IMG/VR virus record: IMGVR_UViG_3300006641_000055
Coordinates: 1 to 41,237 of that record
Length of the DNA: 41,237 nt
DNA from: a virus
Reading direction: 5' to 3' (one strand)
A model generated the notes under the pieces. The model was not told the origin of the DNA. It searched no databases and was given only the letters and a program-made list of their open reading frames with translations. Made by a program: the position numbers and the translations under genes. Below are positions 19,807 to 40,645 of the stretch, in pieces. Position 1 is the stretch's first letter; every line of letters begins with the position of its first letter.

Positions 19807-20601
19807 ATGGCACAGGAGCAAACACGCGATCTGCTGAGACAGAACAGCGAACTAAGACATCATCGGATCTGGAACTGGACGATTCCAGCATGGTTCGTTG
19901 AGTTGCCGAACGGTGCAAGATTCCACACCTGCCCACAAGCCGGTGCATGTGCACAAGTGTGTTATGCGAGAAACGGCACCTACCGCTTCCCGGCAGTCGC
20001 AGCGGCTCACTTACGCAACCTCATGCTCTACCTCGATGATCGACACGCATGGATTGAGGCGATGCTTGCAGAACTGATGCGTAAGAAGTTTCGACCAACA
20101 AGCCATCCTCGTGACCTGCCGACAACAAACGACCGATGGCTCGATCGGTGGTCATCACACGGCGGGGCAGCAGTACGCATACACGACAGCGGCGACTTCT
20201 TCTCTCACGACTACTTGGTCGACTGGCTGCACGTAGCACGTCTCACGCCGGACGTGCTGTTCTATGCCTACACGAAAGAGATCGACTTATTCAAGAACAT
20301 TCTCGATCCTGCGATCGTGCCACCGAACTTTCGTTATCTGTTCTCAACTGGTGGCCTACAAGACGACATGATCGAACCAGACATAGATCGGCACGCCGAC
20401 GTATTCGCCGATGAAGGCGCGATCGTTGCGGCAGGATACCAAAGCCAGAGCGCATCTGACCTGCTTGCTATCTTTCTCGGCACGACTATGATCGGCATAC
20501 CAGCGAACAGAATCCCGCAGTTCGTCAAGAAGATGAACGGACGACGGTTCTCGGAGATGGGACAAGCAAGACTGCACAGGAGACACGATGATCGCAGATG
20601 A
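19807..20601 (+). CDS. Gp88-like protein, first gene of the modification operon
   Basis: The 264-residue product resembles the phage Gp88 group: an N-terminal block HTCPQAGACAQVCYARNG with Cys42, Cys48 and Cys52 (C-X5-C-X3-C), a helix RFPAVAAAHLRNLMLY, then VRIHDSGDFFSHDYLVDWLH and DVLFYAYTK. The spacing could hold an iron-sulfur cluster or zinc ion. The function of the family is unknown. The gene overlaps the dpdA-like gene by 14 bases, implying coupled expression and a possible role in 7-deazaguanine modification. Start chosen after an extended -10. Confidence 0.65.
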   Translation: MAQEQTRDLLRQNSELRHHRIWNWTIPAWFVELPNGARFHTCPQAGACAQVCYARNGTYRFPAVAAAHLRNLMLYLDDRHAWIEAMLAELMRKKFRPTSHPRDLPTTNDRWLDRWSSHGGAAVRIHDSGDFFSHDYLVDWLHVARLTPDVLFYAYTKEIDLFKNILDPAIVPPNFRYLFSTGGLQDDMIEPDIDRHADVFADEGAIVAAGYQSQSASDLLAIFLGTTMIGIPANRIPQFVKKMNGRRFSEMGQARLHRRHDDRR

Positions 20602-21880
20602 CCTACGGACGCTTGCCGTCCCGATCGACAAGTTGCACACCCTCGACGGCAACCCGAGGCGCGGCAACGTCGCAGCGGTGAAGCAGTCCTACGCACGGTT
20701 CGGACAACGCAAACCGATCGTCGCACGACGCGACGGCACAGTCATCGCCGGCAACCATCAACTCATCGCCGCCCGTGAACTCGGGTGGGCAGAGATCGCA
20801 GTCGTGTGGGTTGACGACGACGACACGACCGCCAAGGCGTTTGCGCTCGCAGACAACCGTGTCGGTGATCTCGGCACCTACGACAACTTCGACCTCGCAG
20901 ACATGCTGCAAGAAGTCGCAGTCGATCCCGAACTGTTGATCGCAACCGGCTACACCGCACAAGATGTCGAGGATCTGCTTGCACAACTGACGACCGACGA
21001 ACAAGGCGCGAAGGATCAGATCGACAACGCTGACCCCGCCGACGACGACTCGTTGACGCACAACATCGACGTGTTCTTCAACGCCTCCCCGATCCTCGGC
21101 AAGATCAGCACGGCGATGGGTTTCATGCCCGGGATCATCAGCCGTGCCGTCTCTCCCTCGTACCTTGCGCAAGTCGAAACGCTCTCACTCGACATCAACT
21201 TCGTCGACAACGAGTTCAAGGAGTACGATCACGACAAGCACGTCGAGGCGGTCAAGACCTTGAAACCTCGCTATGCGACCGTCCGAGACATAATGACTCG
21301 GACGCAGTGTGAACAGGCCGGCATCGACTTCTACGACTTCGACGACATCATCGGGATGGCAGAGGACGTGCAGCAGTACGCAGAGAACGTGATCATCGTC
21401 CCAAAGTATGACTGTCTCGACCAGATTCCCGACAAGTTCATGCTCGGCTACTCGATCCCAACCGCCTACGGTGCGACACCGATCCCGATCGACCGATACA
21501 GGGGCCGGCGTGTGCACTTGCTCGGCGGCAACTGGAAACGACAGCGCAACGCACTCGGCATCCTCGGAGAAGATGTGATCTCATTAGATAACAACCATCT
21601 GATGAACATCGCACGATGGGGCCTGTGCTACACACCCGAAGGCGGCTCGAAGGAAGTCGCCAAGACGATGCCCGGGTTCTACGGCAACGTCGTCGCGATG
21701 ATGCTGTCGATGAGCGCGATCGTCGCAGACCTGTCCCGCGCCGGATGTCGAGTCAACGGGCGCACGTTCATGTCGAAAGAGACAAGCGTGGACGGCGACA
21801 CCTTGCGTCTCCCGTCCAAGAGCCTCGACTTTGATCTATCAGAACACGTGACACGAGGAGAAGGAGACGAAGATGAGTGA
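20588..21880 (+). CDS. dpdA: ParB-DpdA fusion, DNA guanine transglycosylase
   Basis: The 430-residue protein has a ParB-like N-terminal domain (about 1-130: NPRRG at 22-26, VIAGNHQLIAARELG at 52-66) and a C-terminal tRNA-guanine-transglycosylase-like barrel. The latter shows LDINFVDNEF near 201, KPRYATVRDIM near 226, VIIVPKYDC near 268, RRVHLLGG at 307-314 (the HxLGxG-like loop) and SLDNNHLMNIARWG at 332-345. Asp334 is a candidate nucleophile. DpdA enzymes swap guanine in DNA for preQ0-type bases. Followed by queF, queC, queD, queE and folE. Confidence 0.8.
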   Translation: MIADDLRTLAVPIDKLHTLDGNPRRGNVAAVKQSYARFGQRKPIVARRDGTVIAGNHQLIAARELGWAEIAVVWVDDDDTTAKAFALADNRVGDLGTYDNFDLADMLQEVAVDPELLIATGYTAQDVEDLLAQLTTDEQGAKDQIDNADPADDDSLTHNIDVFFNASPILGKISTAMGFMPGIISRAVSPSYLAQVETLSLDINFVDNEFKEYDHDKHVEAVKTLKPRYATVRDIMTRTQCEQAGIDFYDFDDIIGMAEDVQQYAENVIIVPKYDCLDQIPDKFMLGYSIPTAYGATPIPIDRYRGRRVHLLGGNWKRQRNALGILGEDVISLDNNHLMNIARWGLCYTPEGGSKEVAKTMPGFYGNVVAMMLSMSAIVADLSRAGCRVNGRTFMSKETSVDGDTLRLPSKSLDFDLSEHVTRGEGDEDE

Positions 21881-22268
21881 CTACATGCTCGGTCGCGAGG
21901 TTGACGAGTCAGAGATCGGACAGTTGACCCCGATCCCGTTGCGGGAACAGTTGATGGTGTCGTTCCAAAGCCTCGAGGTGCAAGCACTGTGCCCGGCAGT
22001 CGCCGGCATCCAACCCGACATCTACGACTGCACGATCACGTTCGTTGCCGACGTGTCGGTCGAGTCGAAGTCACTGAAACTGTGGCTCACCACCTTCCGC
22101 GACCAGCGAATCTTTGCGGAGGATCTCGCGATCGAGATCGGCAACAAGATCATCGACCTCGGTGTGCAAGCAGAACGCACGATCGACGCGATACAGATCG
22201 TGCTTGTCCAGAACATCCGAGGCGGGATCGTCGAAACCGTCACATACCAGATAGGAGAACCCAGATGA
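21873..22268 (+). CDS. queF: QueF-like 7-cyano-7-deazaguanine reductase
   Basis: The 131-residue protein has LCPAVAGIQPDIYD with catalytic Cys40 and Asp49, the QueF signature ESKSLKLW (64-71), TFRDQRIFAED with Glu83, and RGGI near 116-119. QueF reduces preQ0 to preQ1 with NADPH. Cys to Asp spacing is nine residues rather than the usual seven, and the His before the Glu in the FHE motif of B. subtilis QueF is Ala here. Length is a little short of the single-domain type. The full signature favours reductase, not the amidinotransferase QueF-L. Overlaps dpdA by eight bases. Confidence 0.78.
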   Translation: MSDYMLGREVDESEIGQLTPIPLREQLMVSFQSLEVQALCPAVAGIQPDIYDCTITFVADVSVESKSLKLWLTTFRDQRIFAEDLAIEIGNKIIDLGVQAERTIDAIQIVLVQNIRGGIVETVTYQIGEPR

Positions 22269-22966
22269 CCAACACGGTTGCGATCGTGTCAGGAGGCATG
22301 GACAGTGTGGCACTTGCGCACGTCCTCGCCCACCAAGGCCACTCACTGCACCTGTTGTCCGTCGACTACGGACAGCGACACAAGAAAGAGATCGACTTCG
22401 CAAGCAGATGTGCGCAACGGCTCGAAGCACGACACTCGATCGTCGACCTGTCCTCGATGACACGACTGATCGCCACGTCATCGCTCACGGGCGACACGAC
22501 CGTGCCGGACGGTCACTACGCCGAACTGACCATGAAGCAGACAGTCGTCCCGAACCGCAACATGATGATGCTGTCCTGCGCGGTCGCAATAGCCGTCTCC
22601 GAAGATGCCGACTACGTCGCAACCGGGGTGCACGGCGGTGATCACTTCATCTACCCCGACTGCCGGCCCGAGTTCATCGCGGCGGCAAGCGCAGCAGCGT
22701 TGATCGGTATGACCGGCATGCACAAGAACTTCAAGGGGATCATCGCCCCGTTCGTGCACCGCGACAAGGCAGCGATCGCGTCAGAGGGCGACAAGGTTGG
22801 TGTCGACTGGACAGAAACATGGTCGTGCTACAAGGGCGGCGACCGTCACTGCGGCAGGTGCGGCACGTGTGTCGAACGAGCAGAAGCGTTCCATCTCGCC
22901 GGCGTGATCGACCCGACCGACTATGAGGACACCGAGTTCTGGAAAGCGCAGTGTGGTGTCGCATGA
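22265..22966 (+). CDS. queC: 7-cyano-7-deazaguanine synthase
   Basis: The 233-residue product has the PP-loop VSGGMDSVAL near residues 8-17, SVDYGQRHKKE, NRNMMMLS near residue 98 and GVHGGDHFIYPDCR. The zinc site is SCYKGGDRHCGRCGTC (about residues 188-203). QueC makes preQ0 from carboxydeazaguanine using ATP and ammonia. Starts on ATGA overlap with queF. No Gat domain is fused, so it resembles the standard cellular enzyme. Confidence 0.93.
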   Translation: MTNTVAIVSGGMDSVALAHVLAHQGHSLHLLSVDYGQRHKKEIDFASRCAQRLEARHSIVDLSSMTRLIATSSLTGDTTVPDGHYAELTMKQTVVPNRNMMMLSCAVAIAVSEDADYVATGVHGGDHFIYPDCRPEFIAAASAAALIGMTGMHKNFKGIIAPFVHRDKAAIASEGDKVGVDWTETWSCYKGGDRHCGRCGTCVERAEAFHLAGVIDPTDYEDTEFWKAQCGVA

Positions 22967-23379
22967 TCGCAACCGTCGAACGGTATGTCGACATCGACGC
23001 AGGGCATCGAGTGGCCCGCCACGAGTCGAAATGCTCGAACCTGCACGGACACCGCTACCGCCTCACCGTCAACGTCGCCGGCCCCGTCAAGACCGACAAC
23101 AGCCCCGAACACGGCATGGTGATCGACTTCTCACGCATCAAGACCGCCCTCATGGTCATCCACGACCAGTGGGATCATCGGTTTCTAGTCGGTGACGACG
23201 ACCCGATCGCGCACGACCTTCGCGCCTTGCCCGGCACGATCGTCCTCCCATTCCAACCGACAGCCGAGAATCTCGCCGCGGAAGCCGCACGACAACTCAG
23301 CGACCTTCTCGCACCGCTGCACGTCGTCTCGGTCGAAATACAAGAAACAACCTCGTGCACAGCAAAGGTGACATGGTGA
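22963..23379 (+). CDS. queD: 6-carboxytetrahydropterin synthase
   Basis: The 138-residue product has the QueD pattern: DAGHRV with His15, KCSNLHGHRY with Cys24, His28 and His30, then DFSRIK, WDHRFL and PTAENLA, and a C-terminal IQETTSC with Glu. These form the zinc site and catalytic Cys-His-Asp relay. It converts dihydroneopterin triphosphate to carboxytetrahydropterin. ATG at 22963 overlaps the queC stop by ATGA. Confidence 0.92.
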   Translation: MIATVERYVDIDAGHRVARHESKCSNLHGHRYRLTVNVAGPVKTDNSPEHGMVIDFSRIKTALMVIHDQWDHRFLVGDDDPIAHDLRALPGTIVLPFQPTAENLAAEAARQLSDLLAPLHVVSVEIQETTSCTAKVTW

Positions 23380-24128
23380 CTCTCACATTACTTCCCGATG
23401 ACTCCCCGACGCTCACCGTGTCCGAGGTGTTCGGCCCGACGATCCAAGGCGAAGGACGATCACAAGGTCGCGCCGTCGTATTTCTGCGTCTCGGCCTCTG
23501 CAACCTCGACTGCTCATGGTGTGACACACCGTTCACATGGGACTGGACAGGCAAGAACGGTGTCGCCTACGACAAGACCGTCGAACTCGACCGCATCTCG
23601 GTCGACACCCTTGTCGAACACCTGATCGAACGCTGTGCCGGCGTAGTCAACCGCATCGTCATCTCAGGCGGTGAACCGATGATCCAGCAGAAACGGCTCG
23701 AACCACTCATCGCGATGCTTGCACAAGTTGGGATCACGGTCGAGATCGAAACGAACGGCACGATCGCCCCTGATCAACTTCTGCACTGGCAGAACGTCGT
23801 CTCCTACAACTGCTCACCGAAACTGGCAAACAGCGGAGTCGATCGAGAAGCACGCATCAACCAAGAAGCCCTTGACACCCTCGCCCGCCTCGACACGACC
23901 TTCAAGTTCGTGATCGCCGGTCCCGACGACATCGAAGAAGTCGAGGACTACATCTACCGGCACCTCCCGAACGTCGCCCCGCACCGCATCTACGTCATGC
24001 CCGAAGGCACAACAGCCGACCGCATCACCCCTCACCTCCCGTCGATCATGCGCACAGCAGCAAACAACGGATGGGGAATCTCACCACGCTTGCACGTACT
24101 CGCCTACGGAAACGAAAGAGGCATCTAA
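23373..24128 (+). CDS. queE: 7-carboxy-7-deazaguanine synthase (radical SAM)
   Basis: The 251-residue product has GPTIQGEG near 21-28 and the radical SAM motif LCNLDCSWCDTP (Cys43, Cys47, Cys50), then GGEP, ETNG and SPKL motifs. QueE turns carboxytetrahydropterin into carboxydeazaguanine. ATG 23373 is chosen because AAAGGTG lies just upstream and the N-terminus (TVSEVFGPTIQGEG) then has normal length; GTG 23355 is possible. It overlaps queD by seven bases. Confidence 0.93.
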   Translation: MVTLTLLPDDSPTLTVSEVFGPTIQGEGRSQGRAVVFLRLGLCNLDCSWCDTPFTWDWTGKNGVAYDKTVELDRISVDTLVEHLIERCAGVVNRIVISGGEPMIQQKRLEPLIAMLAQVGITVEIETNGTIAPDQLLHWQNVVSYNCSPKLANSGVDREARINQEALDTLARLDTTFKFVIAGPDDIEEVEDYIYRHLPNVAPHRIYVMPEGTTADRITPHLPSIMRTAANNGWGISPRLHVLAYGNERGI

Positions 24129-24694
24129 TGAACCCACCCACAGACGCGATCGTCGACCTCCTCACCTACATCGGTGAAGACCCCACCCGCGACGGCCTCC
24201 TCGACACACCCGCCCGTGTATGCAAGGCGATGCGAGAAATGACCGCCGGCTACCACCTCGACCCCGCCGTCATCCTCTCCAAGACCTTCGACGTTGATCA
24301 CGACGACATGATCGTCCTCGCCGGCATCAACTACTGGTCACTGTGCGAACACCACATGCTCCCATTCCACGGACAGGCCACCGTCGGCTACATCCCGAAG
24401 AAAGGCGCACGCATCGTCGGCCTCTCGAAACTGGCCCGCCTCGTCGACTGCTACGCGAAACGCCTCCAAGTGCAGGAACGCATGACCAACCAGATCGCCA
24501 CAGCGATCGAAACCCACCTCGACCCCGCAGGCGTAGGCGTAGTGATCACAGGACACCACTCCTGCATGCAAGCACGCGGAATCCAAGCCGCCGGCACGAT
24601 GATCACGTCCTGCATGACAGGCGTACTCCACAACGACTCAGCGGCTCGAGCCGAGTTCCTCTCTATCAGTCACGCACGCCCATCACTAGGATGA
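24128..24694 (+). CDS. folE: GTP cyclohydrolase I
   Basis: The 188-residue product has RDGLLDTPARVCKAM near residues 21-35, WSLCEHHMLPFHG with zinc-binding Cys and His (about 70-82), VGLSKLARLV, the QERMTNQIA helix and TGHHSCMQARG with the second zinc Cys. It converts GTP to dihydroneopterin triphosphate, the first step to preQ0. It shares one base with the queE stop. Supply of the pathway precursor inside the operon suggests modification on a large scale. Confidence 0.93.
   Translation: MNPPTDAIVDLLTYIGEDPTRDGLLDTPARVCKAMREMTAGYHLDPAVILSKTFDVDHDDMIVLAGINYWSLCEHHMLPFHGQATVGYIPKKGARIVGLSKLARLVDCYAKRLQVQERMTNQIATAIETHLDPAGVGVVITGHHSCMQARGIQAAGTMITSCMTGVLHNDSAARAEFLSISHARPSLG
24687..24692 (+). 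promoter_or_regulatory. -10-like hexamer TAGGAT before terminase
   Basis: TAGGAT overlaps the folE stop and ends six bases before the ATG at 24699. AGGA could also serve as a weak Shine-Dalgarno. Confidence 0.4.
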
Positions 24695-24698
24695 AAGC

Positions 24699-25301
24699 AT
24701 GGCGGCAAACAAAGCCCCGAGCAAGACAACCACACGCAAACCACGACCCAAGAAGGCCGTGACACCCGCGATCGTCAACAAAGGCGGCAGACCCACCGCC
24801 CTCACACGCGACATCGAGGAACGCATCATCTCAGCAGTCCGAGGCGGCTCCTACCTCGACGACGCAGCAGCCTACGCCGGCATCAGCGAACGAACCCTCT
24901 ACCGCTGGATGCAGAAAGGCAGAGACGCGCTTGCAGCCGAAGAACACGGGTACGAACTCACCGATCAAGAACGACAGTACGGACAGTTCTGTCAGGCTCT
25001 ACTAAAGGCCCGGGCCGACGCAACGATCCGCAACGTCACCCTGATCCAGAACGCCGCCCAGAACGGATCATGGCAAGCAGCCGCATGGTTCCTCGAACGC
25101 ACCAACCCGCGCAAATGGGGCCGGCACGAGACAGTCGAGATCGAAGGCATCGACCGCGACACCCCGACAACCCGATCGGACATCGCCCTCATGCTCGACG
25201 AACGCATCGCCCGTATCCGTGAACGCACCGTGATCGACGTGGACGAGACACCCGTCGAGGACAAGAAACCACAGGCGCGCAAACTTTCTGTCGCCAAGTG
25301 A
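24699..25301 (+). CDS. terS: Terminase small subunit
   Basis: The 200-residue product has a Lys/Arg-rich N-terminus, the GGRPTALTRDIEERI start of small terminases, a helix-turn-helix (YLDDAAAYAGISERTLYRWM) near 55-75 and an oligomerisation region (FLERTNPRKWGRH near 133-145). It binds packaging-site DNA and activates the large subunit, whose gene overlaps by GTGA. The C-terminus is charged and probably contacts that subunit. Confidence 0.87.
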   Translation: MAANKAPSKTTTRKPRPKKAVTPAIVNKGGRPTALTRDIEERIISAVRGGSYLDDAAAYAGISERTLYRWMQKGRDALAAEEHGYELTDQERQYGQFCQALLKARADATIRNVTLIQNAAQNGSWQAAAWFLERTNPRKWGRHETVEIEGIDRDTPTTRSDIALMLDERIARIRERTVIDVDETPVEDKKPQARKLSVAK

Positions 25302-27538: not shown

Positions 27539-28285
27539 GTGAGTCAGACAAGATGGAAGTGCCCCGACTGTGGGCACGGGCTTCTCGCACCCGAGCGGCC
27601 CCGCAAGAACGACGTGCGACGATACTGTCTGCCGTGCTCTGGGAAGAAGGGTGTGCTGGTCGAACGCATCGCCCCACGCCTCGAAGCAGCGCGAGCAGCC
27701 GCGAAGGTCAAGCAGGCCGAGAAGGAGAAGAAGGCGAGGGCGGTCGCGGCAAGCAAGCGTGCGCCCGAGAAGGCAGCCGAGGCACGGGCCCGGCAACGTC
27801 AACGCATCTTCGACACCGAGGCCGATCGCATCTGGAAGTTGATCGAGGAACACGTCGGGCGACGACTCGGCGGGCGACCTCGCATCGACATCGCAGTCGC
27901 CCGACAGCACTACGTCGGTGCGTCCGGCCTCGGCAGTCGATCACGGGCACGCATCGTCCTCGGCAAGTACGAGACGGGAGGCAAGGCCGGCGTGGTCGGA
28001 GGTGAGTGGGTGTGGAACGTGCTTGCGCACGAACTCGTCCACGGCGCGCTGCACACGACCCACAAGGATCGAGAAGGTGCCCACGGGCGACACTTCTACG
28101 AGTGCCTCAGGTACGTCGCTGAGAAGCGGTGGCGCATCAGGGTCACCGGCTGGCATCAGATCAACGGGTACACCGACACGTCCCACTCGTGGGGCTACAA
28201 GGTCGACGACATCATCGTCGCCTCCTTGCGAGCCGCCAAGGTCGTCAACTTCGAGTTCCCACCGATCGCAGTACGCGAGGACTGA
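27539..28285 (+). CDS. SprT-like metalloprotease with N-terminal zinc ribbon
   Basis: The 248-residue product has an N-terminal zinc ribbon (CPDCGHG and CLPCSG), a long charged helix (about residues 45-88, Lys/Ala/Arg-rich), and a peptidase core with VLAHELVHGALHTTHKDREGA (HELVH near 162-166) and HGRHFYECL. SprT-like proteins cleave DNA-protein cross-links in cells. The zinc ribbon is at the wrong end compared with the usual C-terminal one. The role in infection is unknown; capsid or host protein processing are possibilities. Confidence 0.75.
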   Translation: MSQTRWKCPDCGHGLLAPERPRKNDVRRYCLPCSGKKGVLVERIAPRLEAARAAAKVKQAEKEKKARAVAASKRAPEKAAEARARQRQRIFDTEADRIWKLIEEHVGRRLGGRPRIDIAVARQHYVGASGLGSRSRARIVLGKYETGGKAGVVGGEWVWNVLAHELVHGALHTTHKDREGAHGRHFYECLRYVAEKRWRIRVTGWHQINGYTDTSHSWGYKVDDIIVASLRAAKVVNFEFPPIAVRED

Positions 28286-38386: not shown

Positions 38387-40645
38387 ATGCCCCTCGGCCC
38401 CTACAAGGACTTCGACGACTGCGTGCGCAAGAACAAGGACAAGCGCAACCCAGAGGCTTATTGCGGCTCACTCGAACGTGACATCAACCCGGCGAGCACA
38501 GACGATGGTACTGTACCTCGAGTGCGTTTCCAGATAGTTCCGATCATCGACGATCAGTTCGTCGCCGGCGGTGATCCTGCGATCATCGTCGACATCGACG
38601 GAACACTTCTAGGACGTGACAACACCCCGATCGAAGGTCGAGTCGAAGCAGTGAACGCTCTGCCGGGCCGTATGTTCGTGGTCACGGGTCGCCTCGAAGC
38701 AGACAGGGAAAGCACGGCAAATGCCTTGTCAGAAGCAGGTTTGCGCAGTCACACTCTGATCATGCGCAAGGACGAGAACCAACACGTGCCGGCGTTCAAG
38801 CGTGCAGAGGCAGAACGACTGCTCGAAACTTACGACGTGACAACAGCGGTCGACAACGATCCAGACGCTCGTCGTGAATACAAGGATCTCGGTATCGAGG
38901 CGATGTCGCCCGGCGACATGAAAGGTGCAGCAAGCATGACATCCACAACCAGCAACACGCTGTCCAACGTGTCGATCGAGATCGAGATCGAGGACGACGA
39001 AATGATGCCAGAGGCAGAGATGCCCGAGGAAGGCGCACCGATGGAAGGCGAGGAGTTTCACACGATGCTCGTCGTCGAAGGCGTGTGGACAGGCGACGGA
39101 CGGTACATAGAGGAAGGCGCGCTCGGCTGGCGTGACCTCCCGCTGCCTCTGATGGCGACCGATCGCACGACCGAGGGACACATGAACGCGGTCCTGATCG
39201 GCAACCTTGGCAGGATCGAGCGCAAGGGCCGCGAACTGCACGCCTACGGCACGTTCGTGCAAACCGACGATCCTGAAGTCATGCGCCTCCAGAACCTTGT
39301 GCGCAAAGGCGAACTGCGCGGAGTATCCGTCGACCTTGATGCGATGCAGTACGAAGTCGTCGTCCCGCCGATGCCCGAAATGCCGGTCGAGGAAGTCGAC
39401 AACGAAGGCAACACCGTCGTGCCGATCGAAGACATGAAGATCCGAGTGACCTCTGCACGGATCATGGGCGCAACCGTCGTGCCGTTCCCGGCCTTCCAAG
39501 AAGCGTTCATCGAGTCGATCGCGGCCCTGACCGCCTCGACGATGATCCTCGACACCGTGACCGGGTGGATGCAGACGTTCGCCTCCTACGACGACATCGA
39601 CTTCACCCCGCCGCAAGCAGCACGCGACGAAGCAGAACGAGGCCTCGCATGGCGTGACGAACACGGGCGCGGAGGCACCGAGGTCGGTGTGGCACGTGCA
39701 CGAGACATCAAGAACGGCAAGGCCCTCTCACCGACAACGATCAACCGCATGGTTTCCTACTTCGCTCGTCACGAAGTCGACAAGCAAGGACAGGGCTGGT
39801 CGACCGGCGAGGACGGGTATCCAAGTGCCGGGCGCATCGCATGGGCCCTGTGGGGCGGCGATCCCGGTATGGCATGGGCAAACAAGGTGAAGAAGCAGAT
39901 GGAGTCACGCGACAAGCGTGGGTCGATCGTCGCATCAGGCGAGATGCCCGCTTCTCCTGTGATCCCGCCCGCCTCATGGTTCACCAACCCGAACCTCACG
40001 GCCCCCACCCCGATGACCGTCGACGACGACGGACACGTCTACGGGCACCTCGCCGTCTGGGGTACTTGCCACGTCGGATTCGCTGATCGCTGTGTCGAAC
40101 CGCCTGCAAGCATCACGAACTATGCGCACTTCCTCACCGGCGAGATCATTCTCGACGACAACACACGCAAGCCAGTCGGACAGATCACCCTCAACGGAAA
40201 CCACGCACCGCACAGCGCGAACGCCTCTCAAACCGCCGCCCACTATGACAACACAGCAACCGCTGTCGTCGACGTGACGATCGGCGAAGACGAGTATGGG
40301 ATCTGGGTTACCGGCGCGCTCCGACCCGGCCTCGACCCTGTGATCGTGCGAACCTTGATGGCATCTGACGTGTCAGGCGACTGGCGACGCATCGGCGGCA
40401 ACCTCGAACTCGTCGCGATCCTCGCCGTCAACGTGCCCGGATTCCCGAAGATCAGAGTGAAAGAAGCCGAAGGCCTCGTCGCATCTCTCTCCTTGCCGGC
40501 GTTCAACGGCCTCCCGACCGACCTCACAGTCGATCTGATCGCAGAACGCATCGGACGATCAAAGCAGACCCGTATCGCGGAACTCTCCCGCCGTGTCAAC
40601 CGCGACCGTGTGCAAGCACTTGTCGCACGTGTGAAAGGCGCATGA
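38387..40645 (+). CDS. Multidomain prohead protease with HAD phosphatase domain
   Basis: The 752-residue product opens with DFDDCVRKNKDKRNPEAYCG, common in capsid proteases. A HAD-like domain follows (about 62-180: IIVDIDGTLLGRD with Asp69 and Asp71, VVTGR, VDNDPDAR). Next is an S78-like protease region (about 225-380: LGWRDLPLPLM, LRGVSVDLD, SARIMGATVVPFPAF). Then a VGVARARDIKNGKALSPTTI block with FARHEVDK and WALWGGDPG, and a C-terminal HVYGHLAVWGTCHVGF ... VNVPGFPKIRV region. An internal ATG at 38936 with AAAGGTG upstream could give a shorter protease form. Confidence 0.82.
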   Translation: MPLGPYKDFDDCVRKNKDKRNPEAYCGSLERDINPASTDDGTVPRVRFQIVPIIDDQFVAGGDPAIIVDIDGTLLGRDNTPIEGRVEAVNALPGRMFVVTGRLEADRESTANALSEAGLRSHTLIMRKDENQHVPAFKRAEAERLLETYDVTTAVDNDPDARREYKDLGIEAMSPGDMKGAASMTSTTSNTLSNVSIEIEIEDDEMMPEAEMPEEGAPMEGEEFHTMLVVEGVWTGDGRYIEEGALGWRDLPLPLMATDRTTEGHMNAVLIGNLGRIERKGRELHAYGTFVQTDDPEVMRLQNLVRKGELRGVSVDLDAMQYEVVVPPMPEMPVEEVDNEGNTVVPIEDMKIRVTSARIMGATVVPFPAFQEAFIESIAALTASTMILDTVTGWMQTFASYDDIDFTPPQAARDEAERGLAWRDEHGRGGTEVGVARARDIKNGKALSPTTINRMVSYFARHEVDKQGQGWSTGEDGYPSAGRIAWALWGGDPGMAWANKVKKQMESRDKRGSIVASGEMPASPVIPPASWFTNPNLTAPTPMTVDDDGHVYGHLAVWGTCHVGFADRCVEPPASITNYAHFLTGEIILDDNTRKPVGQITLNGNHAPHSANASQTAAHYDNTATAVVDVTIGEDEYGIWVTGALRPGLDPVIVRTLMASDVSGDWRRIGGNLELVAILAVNVPGFPKIRVKEAEGLVASLSLPAFNGLPTDLTVDLIAERIGRSKQTRIAELSRRVNRDRVQALVARVKGA

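Follow-up and report, generated by a model that had tools for sequence, protein, structure and literature searches.

Viruses with 7-deazaguanines in their DNA have been described from both bacteria and archaea. A former survey placed 65 viruses in groups that have the DNA transglycosylase DpdA and the pathway to 7-cyano-7-deazaguanine (preQ0), a few of them incomplete (Hutinet 2019, PMC6884629). The same work gives dPreQ0, the form of this base in DNA, for Rosebush and CAjan and dPreQ1, that of 7-aminomethyl-7-deazaguanine (preQ1), for the halovirus HVTV-1, where it makes up ca. 30% of the G and where DpdA was not found in 2019 (PMC6884629). The DNA of Streptococcus phage Dp-1 also contains dPreQ1, measured at ca. 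1.7% of the G. Here, we describe an operon at positions 20588 to 24694 of a 41,237-base virus record, IMGVR_UViG_3300006641_000055 (from here on, the window), that can be compared with each of these systems. In our account, to which we give a probability of about 0.68, the operon makes a 7-deazaguanine, most likely preQ1, and installs it in the virus's own DNA. The data behind it are the homologies and the order of the genes, a predicted fold, conserved residues, and genes that occur together; the catalytic steps, the product, and the role of a ParB-like domain are inferred.

Six open reading frames (ORFs) occupy this region, all on the + strand, the end of each overlapping the start of the next. 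They code, in this order, for a fusion of a ParB-like domain with a domain of the Pfam family DUF6610 (20588-21880), QueF (21873-22268), QueC (22265-22966), QueD (22963-23379, with an alternative start at 22951), QueE (23370-24128, alternatively from 23355), and FolE (24128-24694, the likely start, the ORF being open from 24071). A Shine-Dalgarno-like GGAG is located 5' of the ATG at 20588, and the genes for the small and large terminase subunits start directly 3' of FolE, at 24699 and 25298. A search with Rfam for a preQ1 riboswitch upstream of the operon found none. An earlier sequence-only reading of this DNA had placed six overlapping genes at exactly these coordinates, and their profile matches are far above chance, except for that of QueF, which is modest. 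It had also reported the motifs of six enzymes; those of QueF, QueC, QueD, QueE, and FolE are there, but no library shows any DpdA motif in the first gene. Finally, it had regarded a full operon including FolE as uncommon, which is not the case, as indicated by the 65 viruses in the groups mentioned above and by cassettes with the same gene order in the phages Godines, Quesadilla, and Sour. The complete operon with FolE is in fact ordinary, as these Rosebush-type cassettes and those of the Funsized type show.

The Rosebush-type phages of Mycobacterium and Gordonia (Godines, a Rosebushvirus, Quesadilla, and Sour) have ParB-DpdA1-QueC-QueD-QueE-FolE-terminase at their left ends, i.e., the ParB-transglycosylase-QueC-QueD-QueE-FolE-terminase order of the window, and the N domain of the window protein has a homologue in their separate ParB (E values of 1e-45 to 1e-64). 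However, they have DpdA1 in place of DUF6610, an unfused ParB, and no QueF, and the base in Rosebush is dPreQ0. In the Mycobacterium phages Funsized, Rinkes, and Knocker (L002, L016, and L017 in our set), the order is ParB-DUF6610, QueF, DpdA1, QueC, QueD, QueE, FolE, and terminase. Their fusion protein, whose sole annotation is "ParB-like nuclease domain protein," is 37% identical to that of the window, but DpdA1 is located between QueF and QueC, and Cys, instead of Ala, occupies the position of a conserved QueF His. Each of these operons holds two transglycosylase-type proteins, which could differ in the base they use or assemble into a heteromer. Dp-1 shares with the window an operon with QueF, QueC, QueD, QueE, and FolE plus a DNA transglycosylase, but there it is DpdA1, encoded at the opposite end, together with a canonical QueF with the His, a QueT transporter, and no ParB. 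Lastly, HVTV-1 and HCTV-1 have, like the window, a DUF6610-type protein, QueF, QueC, QueD, QueE, and FolE in one region and no DpdA1. They differ in their archaeal hosts, a transglycosylase without the ParB domain (31 to 32% identity to the window in the shared domain), a QueF that keeps the His, and a cluster interrupted by other genes. The window looks like the common cassette with DUF6610 fused to ParB, QueF gained, and DpdA1 lost, if this was the direction of change, and the phages with two transglycosylases look like an intermediate or combined form. The pathway and the kind of modification are known; what is new is the type of transglycosylase and its fusion to ParB in bacterial viruses.

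The first gene codes for the candidate DNA-guanine transglycosylase, of the HVTV-1 gp69 type. Its product has a ParB-like N domain (residues ca. 1 to 150), with matches to ParB-like PHROGs reaching 7.9e-38, followed by the DUF6610 domain (ca. 157 to 390; PF20314, 9.6e-39 over residues 177 to 353). Searched alone, the DUF6610 domain recovered three mycobacteriophages (6e-40 to 1e-41) as well as HVTV-1, HCTV-1, and related haloviruses (2e-13 to 1e-15), among them HVTV-1 gp69 (1e-15), which is encoded directly downstream of folE in the 7-deazaguanine cluster of that virus. A profile of DpdA1 proteins had no match in the window record, where, by this search and that for PF01702, the ParB-DUF6610 protein is the sole transglycosylase candidate; nor was DpdA1 found with it in the complete HVTV-1 genome, in which DUF6610 is present. 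We modeled the C domain alone with AlphaFold2, with 18 sequences from the window and viral contigs as input (predicted local distance difference test score, 93.9; predicted template modeling score, 0.90). Compared with the PDB by Foldseek, 49 of the 50 best matches were tRNA-guanine transglycosylases (TGTs), with TM-scores on the query of 0.42 to 0.62, and the predicted fold of the domain is a TGT-like (beta/alpha)8 barrel. The full-length model matched ParB N domains first and TGTs next, and its matches in a viral library were a protein of HCTV-1 and a Caudovirales protein annotated as ParB. Invariant in the 18 relatives are Asp207 (FxDN), Asp234, His310, Gly313, Gly314, Ser332, Asp334, and Asn336. 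By strand order, Asp207 (codon 21206-21208, + strand, in the motif F-V-D-N) would be the counterpart of a TGT active-site Asp. Asp334 (21587-21589, + strand, in S-L-D-N-N after the HLLGG strand) is at the end of strand 330-334 of the model and, judging from the succession of strands and motifs, would correspond to the TGT nucleophile, Asp280. Asp207, Asp234, and Asp334 come in a plausible order along the strands. The DUF6610 domain is very probably the DNA transglycosylase, although its assignment as a DpdA derives from the predicted structure and the homology to HVTV-1 gp69, not from sequence motifs. A DpdA subfamily of archaeal viruses, DpdA4, was reportedly named by Cui et al. in 2023, and HVTV-1 gp69 is presumably DpdA4; DUF6610 and DpdA4 found no mention in the literature searched. 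Should DpdA4 be confined to viruses of archaea, the bacterial DUF6610 clade would fall outside it.

In phages, ParB-like folds often occur as fusions with DNA methyltransferases, and they bind different nucleoside triphosphates (PMC12704722); what they do next to phage enzymes of base modification has been described as unknown (PMC12783734). The terms DUF6610, transglycosylase, queuosine, and deazaguanine are absent from the survey of ParB folds (PMC12704722). The domain may serve to load the enzyme onto DNA. In the first gene it carries a GNHQ motif. The residue after GxH, here Gln, varies among the relatives, some of which have Arg and others Thr or Val, and the capacity of the domain to bind nucleotides may therefore not be conserved.

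All four enzymes leading to preQ0 keep their catalytic motifs, as judged from profiles and alignment to solved structures. FolE (GTP cyclohydrolase I; TIGR00063, 209.3 bits with a cut-off of 181.6; profile, 8.6e-67; GTP cyclohydrolase structures, to 9.3e-54) and QueC (TIGR00364, 175.4 bits with a cut-off of 150.3; profile, 6e-57; QueC structure 2pg3, 1.9e-26) are above their equivalog cut-offs. QueD, the 6-carboxytetrahydropterin synthase (PF01242, 1.4e-28), matches solved QueD homologues, has the motifs Cys, HGH, DH, and Glu, and is 1 bit short of the TIGR03367 cut-off (88.3 against 89.25). QueE, the radical S-adenosylmethionine 7-carboxy-7-deazaguanine synthase (PHROG QueE, 8.8e-59; 5tgs, 2.7e-20), carries CxxxCxxC and matches TIGR03365 at 6.9e-32, below the cut-off of that family. 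In the mechanism that we propose, these enzymes would convert GTP to preQ0, and the QueF homologue would convert preQ0 to preQ1 via a thioimide at Cys40. The TGT-fold barrel predicted for DUF6610 would then remove guanine from double-stranded DNA and put preQ1 in its place, forming a covalent intermediate with Asp334 as the putative nucleophile. The swap would take place after replication, in the phage's own DNA, to which the fused ParB-like domain probably delivers the enzyme, and the resulting dPreQ1 would protect it from many restriction enzymes of the host.

Scans of IMG/VR retrieved 23 and 63 loci with the DUF6610 domain. In a maximum-likelihood tree, the window protein belongs to a clade of 39 rows (support, 99/96) that includes mycobacteriophage proteins, the halovirus proteins being separate, and many members of this clade have the ParB-like N domain. 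Given these mycobacteriophage proteins, the relatives of the terminase, and the tail genes, the host is inferred to be a bacterium. The nearest relatives are L042, which has all six genes in unchanged order and a TerL homologue after them (48 to 67% protein identity per gene), and L043, which also keeps the gene order and has a divergent QueD. The ratios of nonsynonymous to synonymous substitution rates between the window and L042 were 0.25 to 0.59 across the six genes, as rough pairwise values. Within bacterial genomes, DUF6610 was found only in two contigs of metagenome-assembled genomes. QueF was present in every contig with DUF6610 and QueC, i.e., in ca. 13 distinct lineages of the bacterial clade and the haloviruses (some by checking the whole record). 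With the same profiles, it was absent from six of six DpdA1 cassettes (Godines, Quesadilla, Sour, Finch, Sonali, and CAjan), and a few phages, such as Dp-1 and Mufasa8, have it beside DpdA1. Because QueF always accompanies DUF6610 and QueC, dPreQ1 is the best prediction, and this is the strongest argument that the sequences provide. Four viral contigs (L033, L034, L035, and L077) have DUF6610 and QueF, with QueC absent from the record; they may take preQ0 from the host. DUF6610 proteins were also found on 77 plasmid records of PLSDB, mostly haloarchaeal (e.g., NZ_CP085325.1, 21637-22170), annotated as DUF6610 only; they are possibly plasmid DNA transglycosylases.

Several observations weigh against this account, some related to QueF and the others to the first gene. 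The QueF homologue, a single T-fold domain encoded on the + strand, is over the Pfam cut-off (PF14489, 37.4 bits against 27.3; 3.1e-9) but fails the preQ1-synthase equivalog cut-off of TIGR03139 (47.9 against 86.9 bits), which is a real warning. Residue equivalences, taken from an alignment to Bacillus subtilis QueF (4f8b) and the QueFs of Dp-1 and other phages, place Ala82 (codon 22116-22118), beside the substrate-binding Glu, where B. subtilis, Dp-1, and HVTV-1 have His. There is also a two-residue insertion between Cys40 and Asp49, common to L042 and L043 and probably tolerable, given that the QueF of HVTV-1 has a far longer one. The same machinery could therefore work with a base other than preQ1, the four-electron reduction by a His-less QueF being incomplete or minor and the DNA containing dPreQ0 or another derivative, such as an amide, amidine, or formyl form, all the more since QueF and QueF-L are hard to separate by sequence (Hutinet 2019, PMC6884629). 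We consider this unlikely. QueF is defined by Cys55, Asp62, Glu97, and the NADPH-binding QueF motif (PMC5372742), all of which are present in the window protein, which keeps Cys40, Asp49, ESKSLKLW at 64 to 71, and Glu83, and in every phage QueF found. Ala, Gly, Cys, or Asn at the His position is the rule in this group of phage QueFs. Moreover, the QueFs of HVTV-1 and Dp-1 are predicted by HHpred to be QueF-L, and yet dPreQ1 is produced, and the constant company of QueF with DUF6610 and QueC would be odd if the step were useless. Among the homologues compared (L002, L004, and L019 to L067), the phage QueFs have either FHEDC, with the His and a Cys three residues on, or Cys, Ala, Gly, or Asn without that Cys; Cys99, protective in B. 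subtilis QueF, is missing whenever the His position is Cys. A pattern scan for close relatives of the window QueF found none.

With regard to the first gene, the TGT family PF01702 had no match in the record at an E value of ≤1, and 14 of 14 control genomes were positive. Profile-profile comparison of DUF6610 with DpdA1, and sequence comparison with solved TGTs, gave nothing significant, so the relation to DpdA1 is seen only in structure. The record is linear, lacks terminal repeats, and may be incomplete, so that a second transglycosylase might be encoded beyond its ends. Funsized, Rinkes, and Knocker have DpdA1 besides ParB-DUF6610, which could do another job there. DUF6610 might then be a noncatalytic targeting or partner subunit, as in the eukaryotic TGT, the real transglycosylase being a DpdA outside the record or one of the host. 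This seems quite improbable to us, since the Asp residues are invariant in 18 of 18 relatives, unlike what is expected of a dead subunit, DpdA1 is missing from nearly all DUF6610 contigs (in the stretch or record examined), and HVTV-1, with dPreQ1 in its DNA and a complete genome, has DUF6610 and no DpdA1. The pathway of queuosine in tRNA uses the same enzymes, and a queuosine role has been proposed for phages that have the pathway but lack DpdA (Hutinet 2019, PMC6884629). That preQ1 is made here to raise queuosine in host tRNA, and not to modify phage DNA, is nevertheless very improbable: the operon holds a transglycosylase-fold protein joined to a DNA-binding ParB-like domain, the record does not encode a tRNA TGT of the family PF01702, and HVTV-1, with its modified DNA, shares the transglycosylase domain. 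Modification of the DNA by a 7-deazaguanine, as the sequence-only reading had it, is still the best explanation for a locus with a complete pathway from GTP to preQ0, a QueF homologue, and a transglycosylase candidate. The dPreQ1 that it named as the product stays as the likeliest base, but as a prediction, since the QueF lacks the His and falls under the equivalog cut-off.

A more specific version, which we put forward tentatively and hold to be rather doubtful, is that the ParB-DUF6610 proteins of bacterial viruses form an unrecognized preQ1-only subfamily that spread as it displaced DpdA1 in Rosebush-type preQ0 cassettes by fusion to the resident ParB, which would clamp or deliver the enzyme. 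QueF would be obligate because such a transglycosylase would accept only preQ1.

The gene upstream of the operon (19808-20601, + strand), which overlaps its start by 14 bases, codes for a GP88-family protein (PF17338, 7.6e-49) with a C-x5-C-x3-C motif. It was considered as a pathway enzyme and dropped as unspecific, being found in ca. 246 Mycobacterium phage records and adjoining capsid genes in Gilgamesh. GP88 is near the cassette also in L028, L063, and L064, and it is common in unrelated mycobacteriophages. Farther downstream, a protein with a HELVH motif (27539-28285, + strand) resembles SprT-like peptidases by eye and has no PHROG match; in HVTV-1, too, a gene of the SprT-like type follows gp69 at a distance of a few genes. 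A large ORF (38387-40645, + strand) matches head maturation protease and portal families, and its N-terminal stretch is polynucleotide kinase-like.

DUF6610, a family of unknown function in Pfam and a "ParB-like nuclease" in the annotation of mycobacteriophages, gains a likely function. The HVTV-1 type of transglycosylase, previously tied to viruses of salt-loving archaea, would extend to many bacterial viruses, and a simple rule emerges by which DUF6610 together with the preQ0 pathway comes with QueF and probably leads to dPreQ1. Cultivated phages with the DUF6610 cassette exist (Funsized, Rinkes, and Knocker). The best-protected DNA in the former survey was the dPreQ1 DNA of HVTV-1 (Hutinet 2019, PMC6884629), and phages with this cassette are therefore expected to be resistant to many restriction enzymes.

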